DNA of 34,133 nt from Luteibacter yeojuensis (GTDB lineage Bacteria > Pseudomonadota > Gammaproteobacteria > Xanthomonadales > Rhodanobacteraceae), in NCBI RefSeq assembly GCF_000964085.1, contig NZ_JZRB01000053.1, positions 1 to 34,133 on the forward strand. The letters are read 5' to 3'. The position numbers and the translations under genes are program-made. The notes below the pieces were generated by a model. That model was given only the letters and a program-made list of their open reading frames with translations. It made no database searches and was not told the origin of the DNA. Shown piece by piece: positions 3,921 through 23,200 of the stretch. Numbering within the stretch: position 1 is the first letter of the stretch; each line of letters starts with the position of its first letter.

Positions 3921-5312
3921 TCAATGCGGGCCGATGGGCAGCACCAGGGTCACGCGCAGGCCGCCCCCGTCGCGGTTGGACAGGGCGATGCGGCCACCAT
4001 GGGCTTCCGAAATTTCGCGCGCCAGGGCCAGGCCCAGCCCCGTGCCCGAGCGCTTGGTCGAGTAGAACGGCAGCAGGGCCTGCGCCAGCACGGTCTCGCT
4101 CATGCCCGGGCCGCGGTCGGAAACATCGATGAGGCAGTCACGGCCCACGACATGCACGCCCAGGGTCACCTCATCCTCGTCGCCGCCCGCCTCATGTGCG
4201 TTCTTGACCAGGTTGATGAGCACCTGCTCGATCTGCGTGGGATCGAACCAGCCGGGCTGCCTAGGCAGCTCGCTGGTCAGCTTGAAGCAGCAATGCAGCG
4301 ACAGGGCCTCGAGGAAGGGCTCCCATGCGATTTCGCGCGGCTGCGGCGCCGGCAGTTTGGCGAAGCTGGCGTAGCCCGCGATGAAGCCATGCAGGTGCTT
4401 GGCCCGGTCGCCGATGGAGGCGAACACGCCCGGCAACCGGGCCAGGTCGCCGCGCCGGGCCAGTTCGGCGCCCGAGTGCGACAGCGACGAGATGGGCGCC
4501 AGCGAATTGTTGAGCTCGTGGCTGATGACCCGGATGACCCGTTTCCAGGTGTGCACTTCCTGGCGCGAAAGCTCGCGGGTCATGCGGCGGTACAACTGCA
4601 ACCGGTGCGGCCGGCCCTGCAGGCGGAACCCGCGCTGGGAAAGGTGGAACGTTTCCTCGCTGCCCTCCATCTCCACGGTGAACAGCGCGTCCTCGCCCGC
4701 GGCGGCGGCCGCGCGCAGGTTCTCCGGCATCGCCTCGAGCACCGCCGAGAAGTCGAGGCCGGCGAGCGCGCGGCCCTCGTTGAACAGGTGGCGCGCCGCG
4801 ATGTTCGCGTAGGTGACCTTGCCGGCGGCATCGGTAAGCACCAGCGCCACGGGCGTGTTCTGCACCACCGTATCGAGCAGCAGCTCGCGCTGGGCCAGGT
4901 TCTGCCGCTGCTCGCGAAGGATGGTACCCAGTTGGTTGTGCATGCGGATGAGGTCGCCGAGCTCGTCGGTGCGGTCGGTGCCGATCGACATGCTGTAGTC
5001 GCCATCGCGGTAGCTGGCGACGGCACTTTCGAGCGCGCGCAGCAGCCGGCGGATGGGCTCGACGAGGATATGCGCGATCCATGCGGAAAGCGGTACCAGC
5101 ACCAGCACGCATATGGTCAGCGCCGTGCGCGTATCGACCGCCTGGGGCGGGCCAGGCACCACGGGCTGGCCGGGGTGCTTCGCCAGTTCGTCGAGCCACG
5201 CCACCGCCTGCGGGAACGGCCAGATGGCCACGCCCGCGAAGACGAGCGCCCCGATGACCGCCGATGCGGCGACCACGAGGGCCATGCGACCTTCGAGCGA
5301 GAAACGCTTCAT
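3921..5312 (-). CDS. NtrY-like sensor histidine kinase
   Basis: This 463-residue inner-membrane kinase pairs with the activator gene upstream. Two membrane helices (about residues 10-32 and 58-80) flank a short periplasmic loop of about 25 residues. A HAMP segment follows, then a PAS domain (about 155-240), a HisKA domain with phospho-accepting H265 in VISHELNNSLAPI, and a HATPase_c domain. The ATPase domain has an N box (INLVKNAHEAGG), a G1 box (DRGPGM), an F box (LPFYSTKRSG) and a G2 box (GTGLGLA). The start at ATG 5312 is 13 nt after the activator stop; an upstream extension would overlap the activator gene and lacks conserved residues. The small sensor loop suggests sensing within the membrane or through the exporter proteins, which is an inference. 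Confidence 0.92.
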   Translation of the reverse strand: MKRFSLEGRMALVVAASAVIGALVFAGVAIWPFPQAVAWLDELAKHPGQPVVPGPPQAVDTRTALTICVLVLVPLSAWIAHILVEPIRRLLRALESAVASYRDGDYSMSIGTDRTDELGDLIRMHNQLGTILREQRQNLAQRELLLDTVVQNTPVALVLTDAAGKVTYANIAARHLFNEGRALAGLDFSAVLEAMPENLRAAAAAGEDALFTVEMEGSEETFHLSQRGFRLQGRPHRLQLYRRMTRELSRQEVHTWKRVIRVISHELNNSLAPISSLSHSGAELARRGDLARLPGVFASIGDRAKHLHGFIAGYASFAKLPAPQPREIAWEPFLEALSLHCCFKLTSELPRQPGWFDPTQIEQVLINLVKNAHEAGGDEDEVTLGVHVVGRDCLIDVSDRGPGMSETVLAQALLPFYSTKRSGTGLGLALAREISEAHGGRIALSNRDGGGLRVTLVLPIGPH

Positions 5313-5325
5313 GGTCGCGACGGTA

Positions 5326-6660
<1,335 letters not shown>

Positions 6661-6755
6661 CTTGTCCCTTGGCATGTCGTCATGGATGCAGCCCACCCCA
6701 AAAAGGTTGCAACCCACATTCTAGCCACGGGTGGCCTCCACGGGGGAACCGCGGC

Positions 6756-7976
6756 TCAGTTCCCACGCGTGGCCTCGACCGGCGGCACGTGCGAGGCGCG
6801 GCGTGCCGGCGCGTACACCGCGACCTGGCCCAGCAGCCAAAGGGCGACCGCACCCACCGGAAGGTAAACCACCGGCAACCGGGGTAATTCGTAGTTCACC
6901 ATCAGCACGATGTTGATGGCATAGGCGAGCACCATGCCCAGCGCAATGCCCATCGTGGCCAGGAGGAAGTTCTCTGTCTGGAAATAGCGCACCACGTCGC
7001 CACGCGTCGCACCCAGGGCACGGCGCACGCCAATCTGGCGGCGGCGCTGCGCCACCCAGAAGCTACCGAGGCCGACGATGCCAAGCGCGGTGATGACAAG
7101 CAGCGCGATGCACACGCCCACGAGCAGGCGGGCCATGGCGCGGTCGCTGGCGAAGAAGGTGTCGCGCACCTCGCTGAAGTGCGTCTTCGTCATGACGATG
7201 CGGTTAGGGTCCAGCGACCCCAGGCGCGTGGCGGCGGCCTTGAGCACGGCATCGGATTGCCCCGGCTTCGCGCGCAGCACGTAGTAGGCGCCGAGCCCTT
7301 CGGTCATGTGCACCGGGAGCAGGATGGTGCCGTACATCGTGGTTCGATCGAATGCGTACGGCCGTGCCAGGTTGCTTATGACGCCGACGATGCGCATGGG
7401 GATGTCGTCGTAGTAGAACGTCTTCCCCAGTGCCTTGCCATGGAACAGCCTGTCGGCCACGAACTGGGTGACGATGGCGACGTGTGGCTTCACCACGTCG
7501 GGGCGCCCGCTCGTGATGTCATCCAGCCACGCGTACTCACCGGGGTTGAAGTCACGGCCCTCCACGATCCGGGCACCCAGCGTCTTGATGAGGTCGTCGC
7601 CGTAGTAATTCGTGACGTGCATGGCGGGTTGCGCCACGTCGCGGTCGAGCTTGAGGCCGGAGTTCCACGACTCACCGCCCAGCGGCAACTGGTTGGTGAG
7701 CGTCGCCTGCTCCACGCCGGGGATGTCGCGCAGGGCCGCCAGGGTCTCCTGCACGCGGCCGTGCATGTCCGGCGTGGGCTTGACGTTCACCGGGCGGACG
7801 GCCACCACGTTGGCCTCGTCGATGCCCGAGCTGATATCCATCCAGTCCAGGCGCTGGCGGACGAGGAAAATGGCGTTGCAGACAATGGCGCACGTCAGCG
7901 CGATCTCGAGCACGAGGAGCACTGCCGTGACCTTGTGCCGGTGCAGTGTCGACAGGATGGGGCGGATATCGAGCAT
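6756..7976 (-). CDS. FtsX/MacB-type ABC transporter permease, B-type, second pair
   Basis: This 406-residue permease has one N-terminal membrane helix (about 17-38, VTAVLLVLEIALTCAIVCNAIFL), a large periplasmic MacB-type core domain (about 40-270) and three C-terminal helices. The coupling motif QRRRQIGVRRALGATRGDV after the second helix is diagnostic of the FtsX family and contacts the ATPase. The start ATG overlaps the preceding stop as TGATG, so translation is coupled. It is most similar in layout to the gene at 9305-10522: both begin M-x-I-x-PIL-x-x-L-x-RHK and share the phrase LGxRxxxGRxFNP. The protein is the fourth permease of the operon. Its family is certain; what the transporter moves is unknown. 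Confidence 0.92.
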   Translation of the reverse strand: MLDIRPILSTLHRHKVTAVLLVLEIALTCAIVCNAIFLVRQRLDWMDISSGIDEANVVAVRPVNVKPTPDMHGRVQETLAALRDIPGVEQATLTNQLPLGGESWNSGLKLDRDVAQPAMHVTNYYGDDLIKTLGARIVEGRDFNPGEYAWLDDITSGRPDVVKPHVAIVTQFVADRLFHGKALGKTFYYDDIPMRIVGVISNLARPYAFDRTTMYGTILLPVHMTEGLGAYYVLRAKPGQSDAVLKAAATRLGSLDPNRIVMTKTHFSEVRDTFFASDRAMARLLVGVCIALLVITALGIVGLGSFWVAQRRRQIGVRRALGATRGDVVRYFQTENFLLATMGIALGMVLAYAINIVLMVNYELPRLPVVYLPVGAVALWLLGQVAVYAPARRASHVPPVEATRGN

Positions 7977-9286
7977 CACTGTGTCTTCAGCTGGAGGGCG
8001 GGGGTCACCTGGCAGGCGCGCCAGGCCGGGAGCAGGCCTGCCACCACCGTGGCCACGATGGCCATGGCGATGGTCGCGGCGAGCATGGTGAGGTCGAGGT
8101 GGGCCAGTGACGCGTACGCATCGGGTTGCTTGCGCACCATCCACAACCCGAACAACGCCAGCACCACGCCGCCCAGGCCACCGGCCACGCCGACAATGCC
8201 GGCCTCGGTCACCAGCTGGGCGAAAACGGCGCCGCGCGACGCACCCAGCGCGCGGCGCACGCCGACCTCGGCCGAGCGGCGCATGAACTTCGCCAGCATC
8301 AGCCCCACGGTGTTGACAAGGCAGACCACGAAGAAGCCAAGCGCCAGCCATACCTGGATATGCACGTCCTTGGGCACCACCTGGTTGAAGTCGAGCCATT
8401 CGTTGACGTTGCGCAGGCGCACGTTGGTGGGCAAGCGGAACTGGCCCGTCGCCCGCTGCTCATCGGAATAATGGGTGAGGAACGCCTTGTAACCGGCGAC
8501 CTTCACCGGGTCGTCGATCTCGACCCACAGCTGCACCCACGTACAGTTGGCGGTTTCGAGCGAATCCTCCTCCACCTTGCCACCCTTCCCCCAGCAGTCA
8601 CGGGAACCGGCGCGTTGGCCGCGGATGTCACGGGCGGTGCCGAGCGGGATATAGATGTCTTCGCTCTCGGCATAGCTGTCGTAATTGAGGTCGTAGAAAT
8701 GCGGGTGCGGGCGCCACGGATCGAGCACGCCGACGATGCGCAGGTCGGCGCCGTTATAGCGCACCGTGCGGCCGGTGCTGTCCTCGCCGTGGAACAGCTT
8801 GTCGTTGAGCGTGGCGCTGATGACCGCGATCCGCTCGCGGCTTTGGTCCTCCGCGGCCGACCACGCGTGGCCGTACTTCACCGGCACGTCGAACATCGGG
8901 AAAAAATCGGCCATGGTGTAGCGGGCGTGGACGAAGAACGGATCCTGCGCGCTGTTGGCAGGCTGCACCGGGCCCATGCCGCCGGTCATCACCGCCTGGC
9001 GGTCGGCACGCTTCGCGTTCGCCAGCGCCATGGCATCACGCCACGACAGCTGCAGGGGTGGCTCGCCCCGGTCGTAGAAGCCGTTGTCCTCGTCGCGCGG
9101 TTCCAGCTGCGGATAGAACAGCCGGCTGCTCTGCGCCGGAATCGGGTCGCCCGAGACGACGTAAAGCACCGTCAGCGTCGTCATGCACGCGCCGATGCCC
9201 ATGGCCACCGCCAGCACCATGAGCGCCGTGAGGGCTTTGCTTCGCTTCAGGCTACGCAGGGCCAGCTCAAGGTAATAACCGAACAT
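7976..9286 (-). CDS. FtsX/MacB-type ABC transporter permease, A-type, second pair
   Basis: This 436-residue permease starts MFGYYLELALRSLKRSKALT. It carries one N-terminal helix, a MacB-type periplasmic core (about 45-310) and three C-terminal helices with the coupling motif MRRSAEVGVRRALGASRGAV. The start ATG 9286 has GAGGAG 5 nt upstream; two in-frame GTG codons just before it overlap that site and are rejected. It resembles the gene at 10534-11841 in its start (MF-YYL-L-LRSL), in the C-terminal motif and in the periplasmic stretch KFMRR-x-EVGVRR. It therefore looks like a duplicate of that gene. It is 18 nt downstream of the previous permease and ends inside the next start codon. Confidence 0.92.
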   Translation of the reverse strand: MFGYYLELALRSLKRSKALTALMVLAVAMGIGACMTTLTVLYVVSGDPIPAQSSRLFYPQLEPRDEDNGFYDRGEPPLQLSWRDAMALANAKRADRQAVMTGGMGPVQPANSAQDPFFVHARYTMADFFPMFDVPVKYGHAWSAAEDQSRERIAVISATLNDKLFHGEDSTGRTVRYNGADLRIVGVLDPWRPHPHFYDLNYDSYAESEDIYIPLGTARDIRGQRAGSRDCWGKGGKVEEDSLETANCTWVQLWVEIDDPVKVAGYKAFLTHYSDEQRATGQFRLPTNVRLRNVNEWLDFNQVVPKDVHIQVWLALGFFVVCLVNTVGLMLAKFMRRSAEVGVRRALGASRGAVFAQLVTEAGIVGVAGGLGGVVLALFGLWMVRKQPDAYASLAHLDLTMLAATIAMAIVATVVAGLLPAWRACQVTPALQLKTQ

Positions 9287-9304: not shown

Positions 9305-10522
9305 TCAGGCGCGCGTCGCTTCCACCGGCGAGACCTTCGAGGCACGCAGGGCCGGCGCGAACACCGCCAGTTGCCCGAGCACCAACAGTAGCAAGACACC
9401 CACCGCCACGTAGGTGAACGACACGCGGGGCATCTCGAAGTACTTCAGCATCCACTGGCTGAGCCCCAGCGCGAGCATCGTGCCCACGATGACGCCGCCC
9501 AGCGCGATGAGGAAGTTTTCGGTGAGGAAATAGCCAAGGATATCGCTGCGCCGGGCGCCCAGGGCGCGGCGGACGCCGATCTGCTTGCGGCGCTGCCCCA
9601 CCCAGAAGCTCGACAGGCCCACGATGCCGGCGGCCGTGATGGTGAGCAGCACCGCGCACACCACCGTCATGAGGATGGCCATGCCGCGGTCGGCCTCATA
9701 GGCGGCGGCGCGGATCGTCTCGAATGTGCGGATGCCGGTTTTCTCGGGGAGCACGCGCATGCGGTTGCTGGCGTAGAGCGCCTTGGGGATGGCCTTGAAC
9801 ACGTTATCCTGCTGGCCGGGCTTCGTCCGCACCAGGAACTGCTGGTAACCGCTGTCGAAGCGCACGGGCATCAGGGTGACGTTATCCATGTGGTCGAAGT
9901 CGATCCAGGGCACGGTCAGCTTCGCGACGATGCCGATGACCGTGGATGGCTTGCCCTTCGCGTAGTACAGGGTTTTGCCCAGCGCATCGCCCTTCGGGAA
10001 CAGCTTGTCGGCGATCGCCTTGGTGATGATCACCTGGGCCGGCGCCGGGGTGGTTTGCGGGCCCACGGTCACGACCTCGGACGGGTTGAAGTTACGCCCG
10101 GCGAGCAGCTTCACGCCAAGGGTGGCAAGCGCCTGCTCGTCGACGAAGTACAGCGCGCTGGGCAGGCTGTCCTTGGTCTTGTCCGGCTCGGTCTGGATAC
10201 CGGTCGACCAGCCCCCGCGGCGCAGCGGGAACGCGTTGGTGACATACGCCGACTCCACGCCGGGGATGTTCCGCAGCGTGGCCACGTCGGTCTTCATCAG
10301 CGGGATGAAGGTATCGGGCTTGCCGACGTAGCGGTTCTGCACCGTGATGAGGTTGGTTTCATCCAGGCCAGTCGGGCGGTGCACCCGCTCGACGCGCTGG
10401 TGGACGATGAACAGCGCGTTGCACACGATGGCCAGCGTGAGCGCGATCTGCAGCGCGATCAGGATGGTGCCCGACTTGTGCCGGCGCAGCGCGGTCAGGA
10501 TGGGTTTGATCTGGAGGTTCAT
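9305..10522 (-). CDS. FtsX/MacB-type ABC transporter permease, B-type, first pair
   Basis: This 405-residue permease begins MNLQIKPILTALRRHKSG. It has one N-terminal helix (about 18-38), a MacB-type periplasmic core, then three C-terminal helices with the coupling motif GQRRKQIGVRRALGARRSDI. ATG 10522 is chosen because it aligns with the start of the paralogue at 7976 and has AAGG 9 nt upstream; ATG 10528 two codons earlier is an alternative. The gene follows the A-type permease with an 11-nt gap. B-type subunits are shorter than A-type ones because the periplasmic domain is smaller, which suggests that A and B form a heterodimer (inference). Confidence 0.92.
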   Translation of the reverse strand: MNLQIKPILTALRRHKSGTILIALQIALTLAIVCNALFIVHQRVERVHRPTGLDETNLITVQNRYVGKPDTFIPLMKTDVATLRNIPGVESAYVTNAFPLRRGGWSTGIQTEPDKTKDSLPSALYFVDEQALATLGVKLLAGRNFNPSEVVTVGPQTTPAPAQVIITKAIADKLFPKGDALGKTLYYAKGKPSTVIGIVAKLTVPWIDFDHMDNVTLMPVRFDSGYQQFLVRTKPGQQDNVFKAIPKALYASNRMRVLPEKTGIRTFETIRAAAYEADRGMAILMTVVCAVLLTITAAGIVGLSSFWVGQRRKQIGVRRALGARRSDILGYFLTENFLIALGGVIVGTMLALGLSQWMLKYFEMPRVSFTYVAVGVLLLLVLGQLAVFAPALRASKVSPVEATRA

Positions 10523-10533
10523 GCCCATGCGCC

Positions 10534-11841
10534 TTAATTGGATTTCAGCTGCCACGCCGGCTGCACCTGTGCGGCGCGCCACGTGGGATAGAACGCGGCC
10601 ACCACCGACGCCACGATGGCCGTCAGCAGGGTCAGGAGGATGAGCACCGGGTCGAGCGTGGCCAGCCGCGCGATGTCCTCGGGGAACACCAGCGTGGTAC
10701 CGAGCGTGCCCAGGCCCGTCAGCACCAGCCCGAGCACGCCACCGGCGATACCCACCGCCCCGGCCTCGATGAGGAACTGCGCGTAGATATCGCTGCGTGA
10801 CGCACCCAGGGCGCGGCGCACGCCGATCTCGGGGGCGCGGCGCATGAACTTCGCCAGCAGCAGGCCCACGGTGTTGACCAGGCAGATGACCAGGAAGCCG
10901 AGCGACACGACGAGGGAAATGGTGGATTCCTTCGGCACCACCTTCTTCGCGTCGAGCCACTCCATGACATCGCGCACCTTCACGTTGGGCGCCCAGTTCC
11001 AGCGGCCGGCACGCTGCTGTTCGGCGGCGTAACCATTGAGGTAGTTGCGGTAGGTGGCTACTTCGGCGGCCGAGTGCATCTCGGTCCACAACGCGATCCA
11101 CACGCATTCCGAGTGCAGGTAGCCATCCCAGCCGGCCTCCGGCTCCTTCACGCAGTTGTTGTTTCCGTTGGTGGGCAATTGCAGGTCGATGGCGCGGGTG
11201 AACGGGATATACACCGCGGCGCCCTCGTCGAAGCCGCCCGTGTTGGGCACGTCGAAGAACAGCGGCTGTGGCGACCAGTTGGCCATGACGCCCACGATGC
11301 GGAACAGGCGGCCGTCGAGGTTCACCTGCTTGCCCACGCTGTTACCGCCGTTGAACAGCTTGTCGTTGAGGTCCTTGGTGATGACCGCCACGCTGGCATG
11401 CTTCTCGTCGTCGTCGCGGGTCCACGCGTGGCCCTGGATGAAGGGCATGTCGAACATAGCGAACATGTCCGAGCTGTTGGCGTAGGCGCCCTCGCGCATG
11501 GGCAGGCGGCCGGCGTCATCGGGGATGACCGAGACGCTCACCGGGTACACGGCGGCCTGCCGCGGCGCCTTGTGGGCACGCAGTATCGCCGTGACGTCGA
11601 TGTAGGTGAGGGCATCGGCGGGCTCGCCGTTCTCGATGTTTTCCGGGCCGAACGCATCCACCTGCGTGTTGTAGAGCACGCTCGATTTCTGCGGGATCGG
11701 GTCACGCGAGGTGGCGCGGTACACCGAATAGGTGGTCATCGACGCGGCCACGCCGAACCCGATGGCCATCACCATGAGGGCGGTGAGCACCGGGTTCTTG
11801 CGCAGGCTGCGCAGGCCGAGCTGGAGGTAGTAGGCGAACAT
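10534..11841 (-). CDS. FtsX/MacB-type ABC transporter permease, A-type, first pair
   Basis: This 435-residue permease starts MFAYYLQLGLRSLRKNPVLT. It has an N-terminal helix (about 18-40), a periplasmic MacB core (about 45-310) and three C-terminal helices, with the FtsX coupling motif RRAPEIGVRRALGASRSDI. The start ATG 11841 has AAGGTG 6 nt upstream; the longer upstream frame is proline/arginine-rich and unlike the family. It lies 28 nt after the ATPase gene, so it is the first membrane subunit translated. It forms an A/B pair with the next gene, and this pair is repeated downstream. Confidence 0.92.
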   Translation of the reverse strand: MFAYYLQLGLRSLRKNPVLTALMVMAIGFGVAASMTTYSVYRATSRDPIPQKSSVLYNTQVDAFGPENIENGEPADALTYIDVTAILRAHKAPRQAAVYPVSVSVIPDDAGRLPMREGAYANSSDMFAMFDMPFIQGHAWTRDDDEKHASVAVITKDLNDKLFNGGNSVGKQVNLDGRLFRIVGVMANWSPQPLFFDVPNTGGFDEGAAVYIPFTRAIDLQLPTNGNNNCVKEPEAGWDGYLHSECVWIALWTEMHSAAEVATYRNYLNGYAAEQQRAGRWNWAPNVKVRDVMEWLDAKKVVPKESTISLVVSLGFLVICLVNTVGLLLAKFMRRAPEIGVRRALGASRSDIYAQFLIEAGAVGIAGGVLGLVLTGLGTLGTTLVFPEDIARLATLDPVLILLTLLTAIVASVVAAFYPTWRAAQVQPAWQLKSN

Positions 11842-11869: not shown

Positions 11870-12586
11870 TCAGGAACGAGCGGTCTGGGCGTGGTTGTGC
11901 GCGTGGAAGCGCGGCTCTTCGGACAGGTCAACCACCTGGCCGTCGATCACGTGGACGTTGCGCTGCGCGCGCGCGGCCAGTTCGGGATCGTGCGTGACCA
12001 TGACGATGGTGGCGCCTTCGCGGTGGATCTCCTCCAGCAGCTCCATCACGCCGCGGGCCATCTGCGTGTCGAGGTTACCGGTGGGTTCGTCGGCCAGGAG
12101 CAGGCGGGGCGAGCCGGCCAGCGCGCGGGCGATGGCGACGCGCTGCTGCTGGCCGCCCGACAGTTCCGCCGGGTAGTGACGGGCACGGGCGGCCAGGCCG
12201 ACGCGCTCGAGGGCATCCATGATGCGCTGCTTGCGCTCCGGCGCCTTCATGCCACGGTAGCGCAGCGGCACTTCCACGTTATCGAACACGTTGAGGTCGG
12301 GGATGAGGTTGAACGCCTGGAAGATGAAGCCGATCTTCTCGTTGCGGATCTTCGAGCGGGCGTTGTCGTTGAGCTGGCTCACCTCGATGCCGTCGAGGTG
12401 GTACTCGCCACCGGTGAAGGTCTCGAGCAGGCCGGCGATGGTGAGGAAGGTGGTCTTGCCCGAACCCGACGGCCCGGTGACGGCGACGAACTCGCCCTCC
12501 TTCACGTCGATGTTGAAGTCGCGCAGCGCGTAGGTCTCGACGACTTCCGTGCGGTAGACCTTGGCGAGGTGAGTCATTTTCAGCAT
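11870..12586 (-). CDS. MacB/LolD-type ABC transporter ATP-binding protein
   Basis: This 238-residue ATPase carries every ABC motif: Walker A GPSGSGKT (38-45), Q-loop FQAFNLIP, signature LSGGQQQRVAIARA, Walker B LLLADEPTGNLD and H-loop VTHD. The sequence type is that of MacB, LolD and FtsE, which serve FtsX-like permeases that work as mechanotransducers rather than classical substrate tunnels. It is the only ATPase among four permeases, so it must power both pairs if both are used. The start ATG 12586 has GGAG 9 nt upstream and gives the family-typical MLKMTHLAKVY; a GTG at 12634 would add 16 residues without similarity. Confidence 0.95.
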   Translation of the reverse strand: MLKMTHLAKVYRTEVVETYALRDFNIDVKEGEFVAVTGPSGSGKTTFLTIAGLLETFTGGEYHLDGIEVSQLNDNARSKIRNEKIGFIFQAFNLIPDLNVFDNVEVPLRYRGMKAPERKQRIMDALERVGLAARARHYPAELSGGQQQRVAIARALAGSPRLLLADEPTGNLDTQMARGVMELLEEIHREGATIVMVTHDPELAARAQRNVHVIDGQVVDLSEEPRFHAHNHAQTARS

Positions 12587-12636
12587 GAGGGTTTGCTCCA
12601 GTGGTTCGTACGTCGAGGATTCAGGGGGCTTCACGC

Positions 12637-13908
12637 TTACCGTGCAATGGCTACATGCTTGGCGTCGCCGAAGGTGTCGGCGCCGGAGATGACGATCTTG
12701 TCGCCCTCTTTCAGGCCGTCCAGGATTTCGACCTTGTCGATGCTGCTGGCACCGACGCGGATGTCGCGGCGGTCGGCCATGCCGTCGTTGACGACGTAGG
12801 CGTAGCGGCCGGCGCTTTCGTCGACGAACGAGCCACGCTGCACGGTGAGCACGTTCTCGCGGCTATCGAGGAGGATGCGGACGGAAAGGCGCTGGCTCTG
12901 GCGCAACTGCTGCGGCGACTGGCCGTCGAAGCGCAGGCGGGCGGCCACTTCGCCGTTCACCACCTCGGGCGAGATGGCGCTGACCTTCCCCTTCCACTCC
13001 TTGCCGTTGCCGGTGATCTCGCCCGGCATGCCGATGGCGAGGTCGCGTGCGAAGCTTTCGGGCACCTTCATCTCCACCTCGAGGGCGGTGAGGTCGATGA
13101 CGCTGACCAGCTGGGCGTCCTTGGCCACGGTAGCGCGCTCGGCGATGAAGAGCTGGCCCACCTGGCCATCCACCGGGCTTTTCACGTTGAGGTCGTCGAC
13201 CTGGCGCTGCAGGTCCTTCACCAGGAGCTCCTGGCGGTCGTGCGCCAGCTTCTTCGACTGGATGTCGAACGTGAGGCTGTCGTTGTCCACGCTGAGGTCG
13301 CTCTGCGCGTGCTTCTGCGTGATGGCGGCCTTGTCGAGCGCCGACTTGGCCTTGTCGACATCCGCCACGGGCACCGCGCCCTTGTCGAACGCGCCCTGGT
13401 AGCGCTTGAGGTCGCGCTCGGCGGCGGTCTGGTCAACGGTGGCGTTGTCGTAGGCCTTCTGCAGCTCGGAGCGCTTCTTCTTCGCATCCACCTGGGCGCG
13501 CAGGTACTCCACCTGCATGGCATCGGCGGCGGACTGCTCCTGCGCAAGCTTGTTGGTGAGCTCCGGGCTGGTCACCACGGCGAGCACCTGGCCTTTTTTC
13601 ACCACGTCGCCCGCGTGCACCTGCAAGACCACGGCGCCACCGTACGGGGCGTAAAGCGTGGGGCTGACGGCCGCGACCACCTTGCCCTCGGCGGCGATGT
13701 CACGGACGAACGGCCCACGGGTGACCGTGCCGAAGGTGAGGCGGGATGCGCTGACCGACGAATCGGCCGAGAACATCGTGGAGAGCTTCGGGATGGCGAG
13801 GCCGATGGCCACGAGCACCGCCAGCGCGCCACCGGCGATAAGCAGCTTGCGATGGCGGTGGGGCGCGACCGCGACGAGGCGGTCCTGGGCGGAGGTGTCA
13901 CGGATCAT
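12637..13908 (-). CDS. MacA/HlyD-type periplasmic adaptor protein
   Basis: This 423-residue membrane fusion protein has one N-terminal membrane anchor (about 22-42, KLLIAGGALAVLVAIGLAI). A split biotinyl-lipoyl domain is interrupted by a long helical hairpin (about 115-245, K/A/Q/D rich coiled coil), followed by a beta-barrel and a membrane-proximal domain (SVRILLDSRENVLTVQRGSF, then DGLKEGDKIVISG). It should bridge the inner-membrane permeases to an outer-membrane TolC-like channel; no TolC homologue is in the window. It is the first gene of the export operon, starting about 23 nt after the predicted transcription start of the sigma-54 promoter, with GGGAAG upstream of the ATG. Confidence 0.93.
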   Translation of the reverse strand: MIRDTSAQDRLVAVAPHRHRKLLIAGGALAVLVAIGLAIPKLSTMFSADSSVSASRLTFGTVTRGPFVRDIAAEGKVVAAVSPTLYAPYGGAVVLQVHAGDVVKKGQVLAVVTSPELTNKLAQEQSAADAMQVEYLRAQVDAKKKRSELQKAYDNATVDQTAAERDLKRYQGAFDKGAVPVADVDKAKSALDKAAITQKHAQSDLSVDNDSLTFDIQSKKLAHDRQELLVKDLQRQVDDLNVKSPVDGQVGQLFIAERATVAKDAQLVSVIDLTALEVEMKVPESFARDLAIGMPGEITGNGKEWKGKVSAISPEVVNGEVAARLRFDGQSPQQLRQSQRLSVRILLDSRENVLTVQRGSFVDESAGRYAYVVNDGMADRRDIRVGASSIDKVEILDGLKEGDKIVISGADTFGDAKHVAIAR

Positions 13909-13941: not shown

Positions 13942-13958
13942 AGCAAGCCGCGTGCCAA
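13942..13958 (-). promoter_or_regulatory. Sigma-54 (-24/-12) promoter of the export operon
   Basis: Read on the minus strand the site is TTGGCACGCGGCTTGCT, an essentially perfect match to the sigma-54 consensus: TGGCACG, four bases, then TTGC and T. The GG and GC dinucleotides have the required spacing. Transcription should begin near 13931, about 23 nt before the adaptor start codon. Sigma-54 promoters need an AAA+ activator, and such an activator is encoded seventh in the same operon. Confidence 0.88.
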
Positions 13959-14013
13959 CCGTGGAAACGCTTGTTTTTCCGTATGTTATGAACCTGGCCC
14001 AGCCCCTCGGCGG

Positions 14014-14042
14014 TGTCCGCGGACAGGTGTCCGGACACTGTC
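14014..14042. promoter_or_regulatory. Tandem palindromic activator-binding sites
   Basis: Two perfect 12-bp palindromes stand side by side: TGTCCGCGGACA (14014-14025) and GTGTCCGGACAC (14027-14038). They are followed by another half-site TGTC (14039-14042). Their centre lies about 95 bp upstream of the predicted start of transcription, the usual distance for enhancer sites of NtrC-type activators. Binding by the regulator encoded at 5326-6660 is inferred. Confidence 0.72.
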
Positions 14043-14064
14043 AGCGACCACTTTCCCGTCTCGA

Positions 14065-14129
14065 TGTGGGAGCGCGCTTGCGCGCGATGGGCGGTGCCGC
14101 GGGCCATCGCGCGCAAGCGCGCTCCCACA
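14065..14129. repeat. REPIN-like inverted REP pair
   Basis: A 24-bp REP element at 14065-14088 (TGTGGGAGCGCGCTTGCG then CGCGAT) is followed after 17 bp by its exact reverse complement at 14106-14129. The two arms can form one long hairpin, and each has its own small palindrome. It lies between the 3' end of the gene at 14141 and the palindromes of the sigma-54 promoter. It may separate the two transcription units by acting as a transcript-end hairpin. Confidence 0.88.
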
Positions 14130-14140
14130 GTGGGATGTGG

Positions 14141-14704
14141 TCAGCTGGCCATGGCGACGGATTCGGAGACGGCGATATCGCGCGCCACGCCACGGCCCAG
14201 CGAGGAAATGGCCACCTCGCGCGCGCCGAGCACGTCGAAACCGACGAGGCGGCGGCGCTGGAAGCTCAGCACGCGCGCGCGGCTGGCGCGGAGCCACTCG
14301 CGGTCGGGCGCGCGGCGCGAGGGCGCCTCGACGGGCGTGGCGCCCGCGAAGAGGCCATCCCATGCCAGGTAGTCGGTATCGGGCAACAGGTAGATGCGCG
14401 CCAGCGTGTCGCCGCCCTGCGCCACGCAGTCGAGCCACTCGCGCGGGCCCTCGGCCGTGATGGCGCAGGTAAGGCCCACGTACTGCGTGCAAAGCAACGG
14501 CGCAAGCTCGGTGTTCTCCACCAGGCAGCCCGCCGGCGGCAGCGGTGTCGCGGCCCCAGGGGTGGGCCGTGGCGCGAGGTAGAGCACGCCGCCCAGCTGG
14601 CCGAGGCCCTCGACCAGCGTGCGCGGTGGCACCGCGAGCCAGCGGGTGGTGGAACCGGTGCGGGCGCGCTGCTGCACGCCGAAGGATGCGAGCCAACCAA
14701 ACAT
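14141..14704 (-). CDS. Hypothetical protein downstream of hemP
   Basis: This 187-residue protein has no family that I recognise. It has no clear signal peptide or membrane helix. There are aliphatic stretches (LVEGLGQLGGVLYLAP, TLARIYLLPDTDYLAWDGLFAG), three cysteines (about residues 60-95) and an arginine-rich segment at about 128-155 followed by FDVLGAREVAISSLGRGVARDIAVSESVA. The start ATG 14704 has GGGAG 7 nt upstream. It lies 90 nt after hemP on the same strand with no visible terminator between them, so it may share the iron-controlled promoter and a role in iron or haem use; this is context only. A REPIN follows the stop. Confidence 0.72.
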   Translation of the reverse strand: MFGWLASFGVQQRARTGSTTRWLAVPPRTLVEGLGQLGGVLYLAPRPTPGAATPLPPAGCLVENTELAPLLCTQYVGLTCAITAEGPREWLDCVAQGGDTLARIYLLPDTDYLAWDGLFAGATPVEAPSRRAPDREWLRASRARVLSFQRRRLVGFDVLGAREVAISSLGRGVARDIAVSESVAMAS

Positions 14705-15520: not shown

Positions 15521-17211
15521 GGGAATTCCTCGTTCAGTTTCTTGGCCAGCGCGGCCACATCGCCCGCATAGCCCGCCACGCGCTCCTCGCGGATGCCCGT
15601 GACCATGTGCCCGCGCTCGTCGCCCGGCGCCACGGCCTGCACCCACACGCGGCCACCGCCGTCGTAGACCGCCTGCGCGCCGGCAACGGCATCGTTGCCG
15701 CGCCCGGCGAAGACGATGGCCAGCGCGTCGGCGCCGAAGGTACTGGCAAGCGTGCCGAGGATGCCGTCGATCGACGGCCCCTGGCTCTGGATGGCGCTAC
15801 CGTCGTCGCGTACCACCACGCCACCGTCGCGGCGCACCTGCACGGTGGCGCCACGCGGCACGACAAGCACCTCGCCGTGGTTGGTCGGCACGCCGTCTTC
15901 GGCGATGCGGCCGCGGCCAAGGCGGCTGGCGAACGACGCCGCGTCGCCGGCATGGTGCGCGACGACCAGGAAGGTCGCCGGCACGCGGGCCGGCAACGCC
16001 GCCAGGAACAGGCGGATGTCGTCCTCGCTTTCGGTGGTACCCGCCAGCGCCACGACGCGGCGTACCGCGCGCGTGCTGGTTTCCAGGATCATCTCGTGCG
16101 TGAAGCGGCCATCGGTGGGCGGGGCCACCGCGTCATCCATCGACACCAGCTCGAGCGTCAGGCCCGGCTCGATGCGCGCGCTGCCGTCATCCACCACGTC
16201 CTGCGCAAGGAACTCGGCGGCGCTCATCGTTTCGATGCCGAATTCGCCTGCCTCCGCGCGCGGCGCGGCTTCGGGCACGATCGTGTCGTGGTCGACCAGG
16301 TCCCATTCCGGCGCGGGGGGCGGCGCGTATTCCGTGGCGCGCGAGGTGATCTCCACCGACGGCGGGGTATCGTCCGCGGCGATGCTGAACTGGCTTGCGT
16401 CGAATTCGCTTTCGACGACGGCGGGCGGTGCCGGCGCGTCGTCCACCAACTCGAAGCCGGAGAGGTCGAGCGAGGCAAGGTCGGTGAGTTCCAGCGGCAT
16501 GGACGGCACGTCGTCGATACCATCGGTGCCCTGCGCGCCGGCGGCGCCGGATTCCGCCAGCGCCGCTTCCAGCTCGGCGGCGAGGTCCTCGGGGCTGGCG
16601 GCGCCCTCCCCCTCGTCCTCGCTGCTGACCAGCGTGGTCGAGAACGTGAGTTCATCGTCGACATCGCCTTCGATGTCGGCCACGGCATCGAGCGAGACGG
16701 GCGCGTCGGCGTCATCGAAGGCCATGGGCGTGGCCGGGTAACCGTGCACGCCGGTGATGGCGAGGTCGTCGGTGATCGGCTCGCCGAGGAATTCCTCGGC
16801 GGGCGCGGGCTCGCTGGCCATGGCCGCGACGCGCGGCTCGATGGCGCGCGCATCGTCGGGCCGCGGCGGGTCCACGGGCGGCGTGCCAACGAGCTTGGCG
16901 GCCAGGTGCCGGGCCCAGCGCGCGCGGTCCCAGCCCGCGAGGCCGCGGCTGGCGTCGGCATCGTTGAACACCAGGCGCGGATGGCCACCCTCGACCGTCT
17001 CGTAGAGGCGATCGAGGTCTTCGTCCGACGGATCGTCCAGGTCCACCACCACGACATCGGCCGACGAGCCGACCAGTTCCGCGGGCGCGAACGCCTTCAG
17101 GTCGGATTCGTAGACGATTTTCGCGCCATGCTCGACGAGGGCGTCGCGCAGGTGCGCCGAAAGGCCGGCGTCGTCGAACAGCAGCGCGACCGCCGGCTCG
17201 TTATCCACCAT
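15517..17211 (-). CDS. chpB: ChpB, CheB-like methylesterase with altered active site
   Basis: This 564-residue protein has a degenerate receiver-like region (about 5-110; LLFDDAGLSAHLRDAL, VVVVDLDDPS, but no KP motif). A long acidic, disordered linker (about 115-380) follows, then a CheB-type domain (about 385-560). By alignment with CheB, the GASTGG nucleophile motif reads AGTTES, so catalytic Ser is Thr; the QHM histidine is kept in VVAHHAG, and the catalytic Asp is kept in AGRGNDAVAGA although the neighbouring Met and Gly are changed. Methylesterase activity is therefore doubtful. The start ATG overlaps the chpA end by 11 nt. Position between chpA and chpC supports the name ChpB. Confidence 0.85.
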   Translation of the reverse strand: MVDNEPAVALLFDDAGLSAHLRDALVEHGAKIVYESDLKAFAPAELVGSSADVVVVDLDDPSDEDLDRLYETVEGGHPRLVFNDADASRGLAGWDRARWARHLAAKLVGTPPVDPPRPDDARAIEPRVAAMASEPAPAEEFLGEPITDDLAITGVHGYPATPMAFDDADAPVSLDAVADIEGDVDDELTFSTTLVSSEDEGEGAASPEDLAAELEAALAESGAAGAQGTDGIDDVPSMPLELTDLASLDLSGFELVDDAPAPPAVVESEFDASQFSIAADDTPPSVEITSRATEYAPPPAPEWDLVDHDTIVPEAAPRAEAGEFGIETMSAAEFLAQDVVDDGSARIEPGLTLELVSMDDAVAPPTDGRFTHEMILETSTRAVRRVVALAGTTESEDDIRLFLAALPARVPATFLVVAHHAGDAASFASRLGRGRIAEDGVPTNHGEVLVVPRGATVQVRRDGGVVVRDDGSAIQSQGPSIDGILGTLASTFGADALAIVFAGRGNDAVAGAQAVYDGGGRVWVQAVAPGDERGHMVTGIREERVAGYAGDVAALAKKLNEEFP

Positions 17212-20200
17212 GGGTGACTCCGAGCACGTCGTTGATCTGCACCACCAGGTCGTTCTCCTGGTAGGGCTTGCCGATGTAGCGGTCGACGCCGATATCGAAC
17301 GCGCGCTGGCGGTGCTTATCGCCGGTGCGCGACGTGATCATGATGATGGGCACGCCAGCCAGGCGCTCGTCGGCCTTCATGGCCGTGGCGAGCTCGTAGC
17401 CGTCCATGCGTGGCATCTCGATATCGAGCAGCATCAGGTCGGGCACACGTTCGTTGAGCTTCTCGAGCGCATCCACGCCATCCTTCGCGGTCATCACCTC
17501 GAACTCGTTGCGCTCCAGCACGCGGCCGGTCACCTTGCGCATCGTGATCGAATCGTCGACCACCATGACCAGCGGCTTCACGCGCACCTCGTCCTGCTTG
17601 CGCGGCGCCTGCGGGATCGCGGCCTCGGCCTCGAACGCGCGCCGGGCCACGCCATGGCGCACCAGCGGCGCCAGGTCGAGGATCATCAGCACCGAGCCAT
17701 CGCCCATGATCGTCGCGCCGAGGATGCCCGGCACCGAGCTCACCTGCGGGCCCACCGGCTTGACCACGATTTCGCGCGAACCCAGCACCGCATCCACCCG
17801 GATGGCGGCGCGCAGGTCGCCCGAGCGGGCCAGCAGGAGCGGGATATCGCCTTCGTCGGGCGAGCCGATGACATGCACGCCCAGCAGCTGCGGCAGGTCG
17901 TGGATGGCGTAATCCTCGCCGGCATAGCCGAACTGCGGATCCTCGTCGGCCATGCGGTGGGCCAGTTCGTTCGGCTCGACGTTGGCCACGCCGTGCACCG
18001 AAGTCATCGGGATCGCGAAGTTGGTCTCGCCGATACGGACGATCAGCGCCTGGGTGACGGCGAGCGTGAACGGCAGGCGCATCACGAAGGTGGTGCCGGT
18101 GCCGCGCTGCGACTCGATGCCAAGGGTGCCGCCGAGCTGCTTGATCTCGTTGGCCACCACGTCCATGCCGACGCCGCGGCCGGCCACCTGGGTGACCTTC
18201 TCGGCGGTGGAGAAGCCCGGCACCTGGGTGAGCTGGAAGATCTGGTCGTCGGAAACACGGGCATCCGGGCGCAGCAGGCCGCGCTCGATCGCCTTGTCGC
18301 GGATGGCATCGCGGTCCATGCCCGCGCCATCGTCCGAGAGGCGAACCACCACCTCGGTGGCTTCACGGGCCACCTGGATGCGGACCGTGCCTTCCGGGTT
18401 CTTGCCGGCTTCCTCGCGTGCCTGGGGCGCTTCGATGCCATGGGCCACGGCGTTGCGCAGCATGTGCTCGAACGGCGCCTTGATGCGGTCGAGCATGTTG
18501 CGGTCCATTTCGCCGTTGGCGCCCTCCACCACGAGCTGGGCGCGCTTGCCCACGTCGTTGGCGGCCTGGCGCAGCGTACGGCGCAGGTTCGGCACCATGG
18601 CGTCGAACGGCAGCATGCGCGTCTGCATGAGGCCTTCCTGCAGCTCCGCGTTCACCTTCTGCTGCTGCAACAGCAGCGTCTCGGTCTGGCGGGTGAGGTC
18701 GTCCATCATGGTCTGCAGCGAGACAAGGTCGGAGACCGACTCGGCAAGCGCACGGGAGTACTGCTGGAGCTGCGAGAAACGGTCGAGTTCGAGCGGGTCG
18801 AACGCGGCCGCCGTGTCGCGGTTTTCCTGGTGGTAACGGGCGATGATCTGCGTTTCGGTTTCGATTTCCAGCATGCGCAGCTGGCTGCGCAGGCGGCTCA
18901 CCGTCTGCTCGTGCTCGGTCAGCGTCGAACGGAAGCTGGCCGTCTGCTGCTCCAGGCGCGAGCGGTAGATCGACACTTCGCCCGCGTGGTTCACCAGCGT
19001 GTCGAGCATGTCCGCGCGGACGCGGATCTGTTCCTGCGACGCGCGCTGGATCTCCTCTTCTTGCATCTCCGGCAAGAGATCGGGCAACACGCGGTCGAGC
19101 ACCGGGATCGGCTCGGGCTCGGGCGCGGCCGGCGGGACGATGGGCTCGGGCTGCGCCGCCTCGCGTTCATCGCGGTAGCTTTCGGCCGTGAGCAGGTCGG
19201 GCGCGATGGGCGCACCGGCCAGGCGCGCGAACGGCTCGACGTCGGTATCGGTGATCGACACCGGCTGCAGCTTGGCCACGGCCAGGATCATGCGGTGCAG
19301 GCGGTCGAAGCCGCTTTCCATCGCCTCGATGGCCAGCGTGTCGCTTTCGCGCTGGCCACCGGCCACCGCGTCAAGCAGGGCCTCCATGGCATGGGCGAAA
19401 TCGCCGATGGCGGCAAGCCCGGCCATGCGGGCGCTCCCCTTTAGCGTGTGCAGGTCGCGCTGCAGCGAAGCCACGTGCTCGCCCTGCTGCGGCTCGGCGC
19501 GCCAGGCCGCAAGCGCGGCGTCGGCGTGGTCGAGGATCTCGCGGCCTTCTTCCACGAACACTTCGAGCAGATCGGGGTCGATATCCGCGTAGGGCGAGAG
19601 CTCCGGCACCAGGGCCGGGGCGTAGTCGTCCAGCGGCGGGTCGACCGGTTCGGCCAGCGGCTCGTGCGCCTGGTCCTCGATGACCGCAGTCACGTCGAGC
19701 GCTTCGGGCAGCCAGGTGTCTTCGACGGGCTCCGCCGGTTCGGCGGGTTCCGCCGGGGCGTCGGCCGCTACGAAGGCCACCGGCTCTTCGATCGGGGCGA
19801 TCTCGGCGGCGTCGGCGGGCTCTTCAGGCAGCACGCCATCGTCGGCATGCAGCACATCGCCATCGTGCGACATCGGCTGCGGCAGTTCGCTGGCCGCAAG
19901 CGCGCGCCACTCGGCTTCCTGGGCCGGGTCGTACTGGGTGATCGGCTCTACCTGCGGCCGGTCGATGGTGAAACCCTCCATCGAGGCCATCAGCTGGGCG
20001 GTAAGGTCCTGCTCTTCCGCGACGAACTCGATGCCAGGCAGCGCGCGTTCTTCCACCGGCTCGGCGCCCGCGTCGGCCATGGGCTCGTCCGTCCCGGCCT
20101 CCCGCTCGTCTTCCGCCTCTTCGTCCGCATGCGCGGCGCTGGCCGCTTCCAGCTCGGCGAGTTCACCGGCCAGCATGGCTTCGAGCTCGGCTTCGAGCGA

Positions 20201-23200
20201 TGCCGCCGAGGCTTCGGGGGCGACGAGGTCGTCGTTCGCGCCCTTCTCTTCAGCGGTGTCGGCAGTGTCGGCGGCGAGGTGCGCTTCCGCGGCGCGGACA
20301 TCGGCCTCGAAGCGCGCGTCCTCGTTAATGAAGGCGTCCAGCTCGGCCTCGTCAAGCGCCGAGAGCGGTGCTGGCGACGGCTCGTCGGTGGCAAGGGCCG
20401 CCACGGCCGGTTCGGCCTCCGGTTCGGCGGCGGGCTCATCAAGCCGCGGGGCCTCGTGAAGGGGCTCGGCCGGCAGCGATGCCTCGGGCTGCGGCACGTC
20501 GACGAACGACTCGTCGGCGACGTCCTCGTCAACCTCTTCGGCCACGTCCTCTTCGGCCACGTGCTCGCCAGCCACATGCTCGCCAGCCGCGTCCCCATCG
20601 ACCACGTCGAACGCGTCGACCACGGGCTCGGGTTCATCGTGCTCCGGCTCGTCGTGCACCGGCTCGTCGACCGGCTGCGGGTCGGGTTCGTAAAGGATGT
20701 GCGCGACCGTCGCTTCCGGCTGTTCGTCGCGCAGCGCGGTGATGTGTGCCGCGAGGGCGGCCACGCCGGGCACGCGCGGGTCTTCGGTGTCGAACAGGTC
20801 CATGACGTGGTCGACCAGGTCGGCCGTGTCGGTGAGCGCATCGACCCCCTCGGGCCGCAACGGCACGCCCGAGGCGCGTACGCGCTTGATCAGGCCTTCC
20901 AGCGGCGCCAGCACCTGGATCAGCACCGGGATATCGACCATGCCGATGGCGCCATGCAGCGTGTGCACGGCGCGCAGGAGCGCGTCGTCCACCGGCAGTT
21001 CGCCGTCACCAGCAAGCGCGAGGTTGGCGCGGATGATGTGCAGGTACTGCGCCACTTCCGTGCGCAGGATATCGAGCAGCACGGCGTCGACGGGCGGCAG
21101 CGGCGGCGCGACGTAGGCCGGCTCCTCCGCCGGGGCCGGCTCCGGCTCGGCGGCCGGTGGCTGGCCGTAGCCTGCGAACGCGGCCGTGGGCACGGCGGCG
21201 ATGGTGTCGCGCGGCACACGCCGCTTCACCTTGGTGCGCACCTTCTGCACCGCGTTGCGCGCCACGTCCTCGACGAACGCCATGTCGCCCATGGCGAGGC
21301 GATCGGCCGTCTCCATGATGGCGGCGATGGGTGCCGTGACGTTTTCGTCGCCCTCGAGCGCTGCCTTCAGCTGCGGCAACGCGTCGACGGCGTGGCGCAC
21401 CAGCGCCTGCACGCCTTCGTGCGGCCCGATGCTGCCATCGAGCACGCGGTTGAGCATGTTTTCGACCTTCCAGGCGAACTCGCCCAGCAGGCGGGCACCG
21501 ACCAGGCGGCCAGAGCCCTTGAGGGTGTGGAACGAGCGGCGCACCGGGGTCAGCGCGTCGGGGCGCTCCGGGTTCGGCAGCCACGCGGCAAGGCCCGCGC
21601 GCAGATTCTCGATTTCCTCCTGGGTCTCCTCCAGGAAGATCTCGCGGATCTCGTCGTCGATGCCATCGACCGTGATCTGGAAACCGGCGAACTCGGCCAC
21701 GCCGCTGTCGCCACCCACTTCCTGTTCGATTTCTTCTTCGATCTCGACCCAGTCTTCGTCAGGCAGTGCGGCAACCGGCTCGGCGGCGACAGCGGCGACG
21801 CTGCCGGCGGCCATCGTCCCGGCGGGCTCGGCCGGCGGTTCGTCCACCAGGTCGAACGTATCGGCGAAGCTGGACACCTGCTCGCCTTCATCGGCGCTAC
21901 TGGCAGGCACGGCGATGTGTTCCACCGCTTCGGCCTCGATGCCGCCGATGGCTTCCTCGCCCAGGCCTTCGTCGTCCGCGGCATCGACCGGCACCGGCCA
22001 GTAGCCGAGTTCGGCGAGGCTCTGCTGGGTGACGTCGAGGATGTGGTCGAGCCCGCCGCGGTGTTCGCGCGCGGCTTCGAGGTAGTACTCAAGCGCGGCA
22101 AGCGCGTCGGCGAGGCGATCCATCTGCGTGCCGTTGGGCACGCGGCGGTCGCCCAGCAGTTCGCGGTGGATGAACAGGCCGATGCCGTCGGCCAGCTCGG
22201 CCGGGCGCGGGGCGCCCAGCATGCGCATGGCGCCACCGATCTCGCCCATCAGCTCCGGCGTGCCGGCCAGCTGTTCGTGGTCCCACTGGGACTCGACGAA
22301 GCCGACGATGGCGTCTTTCACCCGCGACGTGTTGGTGGTGGCCTCGCGCATCAGCGTGCTGAGGATGTGGCGCGCCTCGCTGCGCGGCAGCGGCGACGGG
22401 CCGGTATCGGCCATGGGCGTCTCGCCCTCGGCGCCGAGGCGCTCGATGTGGTCGTCGAGCGACGCTTCCACGTAAAGCAGCGCGCCGGCGACATCGAGCA
22501 GGGATTCTTCATCGGGCGCACGCGTGCCCGTGGCGATCTCGCCAAGTATGCGGCGCTGTTCGCCCACCACGCGGCGCGGCACGCCCAGGGCGAGCATGCC
22601 CAGCGTATCGCCCACGCGGTCGAGCACGTCGGCCTGCGGCCCGAGCTGGCCCGGGTCGCCATCGGGGCGGCGCAGGAACAGGTCGAGCGACTCCTTCACG
22701 CGCAGCAGGTCTTCCTTGATGGCCGCCGATACGGTGTCGAGCAGCGCACGGTTGTGGCCCGACATGGAGCCACGGGCGTGTTCCACTTCGGCCGCGCGCG
22801 GCAGCAGCCCGTCGAGGCGATAGGCCTGGCGGAGCTCTTCCACGCGCTCGCTGCCTGGCTTGGCCTGGGCCACGTAGTACAGCAACTTGCGGGCGAGGTC
22901 GTCCGAATCGCCCGTGAGCATGGCCTCCTCGCCGCCATCCACCAGTTCGCGGATGGAGCGATCGACGCGGCCGATGAGCTGGCGCACGTCTTTTTCATGG
23001 GCACGCAACACGCCGCGCTCCAGGCCCTCGAGCACGCCGGCGGCGATCCACCACAGGCGGCGGCCGGCGATGGTGTAGCAACGCGCGGCGATGCTGTCGA
23101 GCGTGCCACGCATGCCAAGCAGCTGGCGTTCACCGCCCTGCCCGCGGAACCACGCGAGCAGCTGCTGCTGGAAGCGGGCGCGCAGCTCGGGCAGCTCGCC

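Follow-up and report, generated by a model that had tools for sequence, protein, structure and literature searches.

A self-activating σ54 regulon, governed by an NtrC-type response regulator and serving a MacA/FtsX-type exporter together with its likely peptide cargo, is the reading that we favour for the DNA described here, with a probability of roughly 0.8. It is based on the conservation of a −24/−12 promoter and its upstream palindromes, the register of the two, their co-occurrence with the regulator and the membership of a wider regulon, each of which was demonstrated computationally. The window, which is the whole stretch of 34,133 nucleotides that was analysed, is contig C94 of the Luteibacter yeojuensis source genome (G000; 4.55 Mb); the features of its exporter operon, and genes found under the same element elsewhere, are collected in Table 1.

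Table 1. Promoter, operon and candidate regulon members; positions refer to the window, other locations to contigs of the source genome (C) or loci of relatives (L).
Feature	Location	Strand	Basis or context
−24/−12 σ54 promoter element TTGGCACGCGGCTTGCT	13942-13958	minus	pattern match and conservation in orthologues
Presumed upstream activating site, perfect 12-bp palindrome TGTCCGCGGACA	14014-14025	minus	
Second perfect 12-bp palindrome GTGTCCGGACAC	14027-14038 (core 14028-14037)	minus	
Periplasmic adaptor (HlyD/RND_mfp type, N-terminus MIRDTSAQD)	12637-13908	minus	
ABC ATPase (MacB/LolD/DarD type)	11870-12634	minus	
MacB_PCD/FtsX permease 1	10534-11841	minus	
MacB_PCD/FtsX permease 2	9305-10522	minus	
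MacB_PCD/FtsX permease 3	7976-9286	minus	
MacB_PCD/FtsX permease 4	6756-7979	minus	
NtrC-type response regulator (receiver, AAA+ with GAYTGA, Fis-type HTH)	5326-6675 (start may be 6660)	minus	
Sensor histidine kinase (HAMP-like region, HATPase_c)	3921-5312	minus	
TolC-type protein, 448 residues	C112		PF02321, 1.9e-51; downstream of composite element
Four paralogous 42-43-residue peptides	C61, C68, C74, C99		downstream of composite element
69-residue peptide	C53		composite element upstream; trmL-like gene follows
FtsX permeases in relatives	L093 and others		under element; L093 by Pfam, others by sequence
TolC-type protein in relative	L139		under element
S33-type hydrolase in relative	L131		under element
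DUF4440 protein in relative	L112		under element
DUF885 protein in relative	L169		under element
Beta-lactamase-family hydrolase after 28-residue peptide	L091		under element

Promoters of the σ54 type follow the consensus TGGCAC-N5-TTGC. The minus-strand element that the original prediction placed before the adaptor gene is present at 13942-13958 and matches this consensus at −24/−12 spacing; because it ends at 13942 and the adaptor ATG lies at 13908, the two are separated by 33 bp rather than the 34 bp first given. The two perfect 12-bp palindromes, predicted about 95 bp upstream of the transcription start, were likewise found, with centres ~88 and ~101 bp 5′ of the start predicted at 12 bp past the −12 GC. 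The genome holds one RpoN gene, on which the promoter is predicted to depend. The interval separating the palindromes from the upstream gene carries an inverted repeat made of GTGGGAGCGCGCTTGCGCGCGATGG and its complement (window 14050-14130); L031 has a stretch resembling it near the promoter. Further 5′ are a 187-residue open reading frame (14141-14704, minus) that matches nothing in Pfam or NCBIfam and, upstream on the same strand, one of 2165 residues (17201-23698, minus) whose product, by eye, resembles a kinase of the chemotaxis type that includes a receiver domain.

Palindromes of the form TGTCC-n(0-2)-GGACA were observed twice in the window vs. 0.04 expected, and 0 of 100 shuffles contained two, whereas a −24/−12 match alone is not rare (1 observed vs. 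1.24 expected in the window at no more than one mismatch). Genome-wide the palindrome alone is at background frequency (15 places vs. 16 for a reversed control); it was therefore dropped as a marker and its composite with the −24/−12 element was used instead. The composite pattern was matched in 77 of 250 genomes of the order, and the reversed control gave 0 in every row; the rarity resides in the pair in register. Lone palindromes at background frequency are what would be expected if they were an operator or a transcript hairpin with no tie to σ54 activation, but their register to −24/−12 in many genera and the empty reversed control render that explanation highly implausible.

The placement of the regulator and kinase as the final two genes of the unit was confirmed, on the same strand as the others. 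The regulator begins ~80 bp after the last permease, or ~95 bp if its start is 6660, and 13 bp separate it from the kinase. Between 3700 and 14300, terminator-like sites number 4 vs. 4.8 expected from shuffles, of which two weak ones are on the operon strand (9139-9122 and 5664-5652), and 0 sites of the σ70-promoter type were found vs. 0.8 expected, counts that speak neither for nor against an interruption of the unit; co-transcription of the operon genes is presumed. A plasmid search with the promoter and the adaptor returned no match. The regulator has the domains of the NtrC family above cut-off (PF00072, PF00158, and PF02954), with a Walker A motif (TGPNGAGKE) and a GAYTGA loop; the change of Phe to Tyr in GAFTGA is tolerated, and four orthologues (L056, L057, L199, and L215) have GAYTSA or GAYSGA where the window's protein has GAYTGA.

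Searching 61 genomes located the adaptor in 53 of them, at 56 places in total, and the upstream DNA of every one of these places was read. All 22 loci of the genus have both the σ54 site and the exact palindrome TGTCCGCGGACA, and among the other members of the family, counting the best copy in each genome, these occur in 14/14 and 12/14, which gives 36/36 for the σ54 site. In the rest of the order, again with the best copy per genome, conservation is weaker (σ54 site in 11/17, exact palindrome in 4/17), and one further locus outside the family has TGTCCGGACA in place of the exact palindrome. Three second copies of the adaptor (L068, L069, and L071) are preceded by neither the σ54 site nor the palindrome. 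The tandem arrangement that was originally claimed stands within the genus, where the core of the second palindrome is present in 15/22, and fails in other lineages, which show one full palindrome and half-sites. In a profile of 18 genus loci (L031, L032, L036, and L039, with other gaps, were excluded), the palindrome and most of the −24/−12 core reach 2 bits per position and the flanks mostly 0.1 to 0.6: both elements are preserved in orthologous operons while the surrounding sequence drifts. Such conservation supports the predicted σ54 promoter with upstream palindromes, and the original prediction, which loss of the palindromes from orthologous operons would have refuted, passes this check within the family.

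Among the matches listed, the composite element precedes the exporter adaptor in Xanthomonas, Stenotrophomonas, Shewanella, and Roseateles, and loci of Rheinheimera and Arsukibacterium also carry it before the same adaptor. The regulator accompanies the exporter in the Xanthomonas, Stenotrophomonas, and Shewanella loci; it was not seen within the Roseateles stretches read. With a relaxed pattern, 18 of 60 Xanthomonadaceae genomes were matched once each, 16 of these before the adaptor, and outside the order the composite pattern was matched in 1 of 364 genomes of the class.

In the source genome the composite pattern occurs at seven places, the window operon included, and with its targets in relatives (Table 1) it marks a regulon beyond the single operon of the original prediction. 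The gene that follows the 69-residue peptide is probably trmL. Among the matches listed, 119 loci in named genomes were sorted by target: the adaptor is downstream in 76 (tblastn), a peptide of the family in 25 and an FtsX permease in 7 (both by eye), and the remaining 11 have another gene or none assigned. These 11 include adaptor-like N-termini (L210 and L289), an ATPase (L291), a hydrolase (L188), a DUF4440-like protein (L203), and three loci outside the spacing bands described below. A match at a transposase (L085, in G119) is likely due to chance, and four to which no gene was assigned (L136, L256, L264, and L271) perhaps are too; L264 belongs to Xanthomonas, and an adaptor there may have escaped detection. 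In a genus of another family (g47), an unrelated hydrophobic peptide of 55 residues lies under the composite element (L083 and L084).

The distance between palindrome and promoter is also restricted. A search that relaxed the palindrome ends and allowed gaps of 15 to 110 yielded 242 distinct sites, of which 238 had gaps of 42 to 69, clustered at 42-45, 51-59, and 63-69 with two single sites between (48 and 61). In the pattern scan of named genomes, 116 of 119 loci among the matches listed have gaps of about 44, of 52-57, or of 64-69 bp, bands that cover 17 of the 31 allowed gaps and were drawn after 80 loci had been seen; 38 of the 39 loci first read after the bands were set also fall within them, again among the matches listed. 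The three loci out of band (L213, L218, and L280) are without a plausible target. Exact phasing at 10.5 bp was rejected, the Rayleigh scan having its peak near 12 bp (0.77) and a value of 0.67 at 10.5; the bands are consistent with a constraint on helix face, and we claim no measured period. The consensus for integration host factor (IHF) is WATCARNNNNTTR. Of 238 spacers, 49 match it in full vs. 0.8 expected and 77 at all but one position vs. 12.2 expected, where the expectation comes from 20 base shuffles per spacer and common descent makes the sites non-independent. The spacer in the window belongs to neither of these groups, which match at 9 and 8 of the 9 positions.

Orthologues of the regulator were defined by a cut of our own (at least 56% identity, E up to 1e-150, with paralogues at no more than 50%) and occur in 118 of 250 order genomes. 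The σ54 site (TGGCA-N7-TGC) is found at the adaptor in 34/34 genomes that have both adaptor and orthologue; in L063 its distance from the aligned adaptor start is 168 bp, but an upstream ATG follows it after ~28 bp. It was found in 0/6 adaptor genomes without the orthologue (G040, G043, G046, G051, G053, and G055; 400 bp scanned), among which a looser pattern gives one site, in L059. In 30/34 genomes the regulator follows the adaptor at a distance of 4.7 to 21.6 kb and shares its strand, and in the other four (G030, G039, G047, and G056) it is unlinked and the σ54 site at the adaptor is present nonetheless, with the exact palindrome in G039 and G056. Across the 250 genomes, 76 have both composite element and orthologue, 1 the element only (G119), 131 neither, and 42 the orthologue only, so that the exact element is absent in 42 of the 118; the association (Fisher p = 4e-32, a test that ignores phylogeny) is confounded by phylogeny. 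Within the family, seven orthologue genomes are without the exact element, six with a regulator at 66-74% identity and one (G227) at 84%. Of 27 aligned orthologues three were cut off; the other 24, ranging from Luteibacter to Shewanella (L247) and Arsukibacterium (L199), are readable to the end and all have the identical recognition-helix core SRQALYRR.

Five other proteins of the genome match the central domain of the regulator, and one of them could be what binds the palindromes, the operon's own regulator being a mere neighbour; PilR was considered as a candidate binder. The paralogous response regulator on C46 (L376, G000:C46:168855-170162) would suit such a role in that it has the identical SRQALYRR core together with a σ54 interaction domain, and G119 keeps a peptide promoter in a genome where no orthologue of the regulator was found. 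The C46 protein has GTLPGS instead of the GAFTGA loop, and an activator without this loop should not activate σ54, so C46 should not do so, although it might bind or compete for the palindrome sites; the core is absent from the remaining four, which differ in the helix. With the orthologue present in 76 of 77 element-bearing genomes and the adaptor promoter in 34/34 genomes with it vs. 0/6 without, another activator is unlikely, and the operon-encoded regulator is preferred. In G119 (L367 and L383) the peptide gene and its promoter, with two mismatches in the palindrome, stand before a trmL-like gene as in the source genome, and neither adaptor nor regulator orthologue was found there; the peptide gene may be a relic or have a different use.

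The peptides under the element form a previously undescribed family that is easily missed by annotation. Sixty-nine distinct members of 27 to 73 residues passed the filter. All 69 have E within the first nine residues, a position at which the filter favours it, followed by a hydrophobic stretch at residues 10-28 (median hydropathy 2.15) with a net charge of 0 or +1 before it. This N-terminal part is conserved; the tail is variable, often C-x(6-10)-C, and 39 of the 43 peptides of at least 55 residues carry, beyond residue 30, a pair of Cys separated by 6-10 residues, often as CALPPDGVVCP, a tail kept across genera. An N-in, C-out topology and disulfide formation are presumed. Three peptides were searched against Pfam and NCBIfam, and none had a match better than chance. 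Between close copies, 31 pairs picked by DNA identity, there are 98, 46, and 170 differences at the first, second, and third codon positions, a bias that supports their being coding; pN/pS is 0.28 over 21 pairs picked by at least 70% protein identity, a value biased low because of that selection.

A profile of 24 peptides recovered five members in the source genome, identical to the five found by promoter, and matched 47 of 250 order genomes, 45 of them in Rhodanobacteraceae (52 sampled); the match in G026 among these 45 is weak, as are the two outside the family. Forty loci, hand-chosen from profile matches missed by the exact pattern and not all such matches, were fetched, and all 40 have a near-palindrome, with one mismatch in 39 and two in 1, and TGGCAY-N6-TGC at a gap of 57 or 64-68. 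As the profile was built from promoter-found peptides, it extends the association past the exact pattern without making it fully independent, and where peptide genes are duplicates, part of the promoter conservation reflects common ancestry. The four genes for 42-43-residue peptides lie in repeated cassettes of ~1 kb, 80-90% identical (L009:1193-2193, which is G000:C74, L013, L005, and L008) and bounded by long inverted repeats, the C68 copy being cut by the contig end. A single repeat arm is matched 22 times in the genome, counting both cassette arms, and some of these matches flank other sequence, e.g., on C83; a mobile element with target-site duplication was rejected, none being convincing at three cassettes. 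In G003, of the same genus, there are ten peptide matches, two of which were read (L413 and L414) and have the same flanking repeats.

Rather than cargo, the peptides may be membrane proteins with one helix each that modulate the exporter or the kinase: the hydrophobic helix is their conserved part, the 12 of 69 distinct peptides that are only 27-29 residues long have no tail for export, and in Xanthomonadaceae exporter and regulator occur where the peptide profile finds nothing, so the peptides cannot be the exporter's universal cargo. Against this stand the paired-Cys tail across genera, the resemblance of a constant leader and variable tail to exported peptides, and the inclusion of a TolC-type channel in the regulon. 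We regard a modulatory role as quite possible, if on balance doubtful, and export of the peptides from the periplasm, by analogy, as probably the likeliest job of the exporter.

In the self-activating regulon that we favour, the kinase would phosphorylate the NtrC-type regulator, which would sit on the palindromes at 14014-14038 as enhancer sites and, across a spacer that in many relatives may be bent by IHF, contact RpoN polymerase at 13942-13958, stimulate open complex formation and turn the exporter operon on. The regulator and kinase genes at the operon end would supply positive feedback, and the regulator would act in trans on the TolC-type channel, the peptide family and, in some relatives, extra FtsX permeases; the exporter would then move peptides out of the periplasm, for which MacAB-TolC is the precedent. 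Binding of the palindromes, RpoN dependence, autoregulation, and peptide export are what we infer from the computed evidence. More speculatively, and with little confidence, Rhodanobacteraceae might use one σ54 two-component circuit of exporter, channel, and tiny peptides that share a leader and differ in their tails, often paired by disulfides, for peptide secretion or signalling; the kinase may sense the exported peptides and so close the loop, and in Luteibacter some of the peptide genes would have multiplied on cassettes with long inverted repeats at their ends. A promoter guess becomes in this way a defined regulon with an exact predicted binding site, an unnamed peptide gene family gains a candidate exporter, channel, and switch, and what a widespread MacA/FtsX-type exporter carries can be tested directly.

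Among the matches listed, in literature whose coverage left subscription papers and preprints mostly outside, no title or abstract opening concerned the TGTCCGCGGACA site, the regulon or the peptide family. MacA, FtsX, and TGTCC do not occur in the available part of PMC3162934. Control of FtsX-like permeases by σ54 has been predicted computationally in general terms (PMC12316311); unlike the present case, the accessible text of that study has no enhancer motif, peptides or Xanthomonadales exporter. The system resembles those of NtrC, ZraR, PrsR, and CbrB in its receiver, AAA+ and Fis-type HTH domains and its −24/−12 promoter, and NtrC-type systems generally in a palindrome ~90-100 bp upstream of the predicted start and, in many relatives, an IHF-like spacer. 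It differs in falling below the NCBIfam equivalog cut-offs: the best match of the regulator is PEP_resp_reg (341.2 of 502.6 bits), and membership of PrsR/PrsK (PEP-CTERM) was rejected on this score and one of 63.2 of 300 bits. Relative to NtrC-type systems, the site TGTCCGCGGACA with this target set is a further difference, absent from the titles and abstract openings among the matches listed.

Two known systems come closest to the exporter itself. The best NCBIfam match of its ATPase is DarD (254.5 bits) and its adaptor matches DarC (80.7 bits), as in the darobactin exporter DarBCD, membership of which was rejected because the scores are below the DarB, DarC, and DarD equivalog cut-offs (375 and 450 bits for the ATPase and adaptor matches). 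PhoPQ controls MacAB in E. coli and Salmonella, and MacAB-TolC takes a Sec-secreted peptide with a disulfide bond from the periplasm out of the cell (available text of PMC5985334). With MacAB-TolC the present system shares the adaptor, MacB-type core domains with FtsX, an ABC ATPase, and a TolC-type channel in the regulon, so that both an adaptor, in the operon, and an outer-membrane factor, under the element, are present. The MacB equivalog is out of reach of the ATPase (best 214.2 of 966 bits), and MacB fuses the ATPase to one permease, whereas here a separate ATPase accompanies four permeases; the exporter is therefore MacAB-like rather than MacAB.
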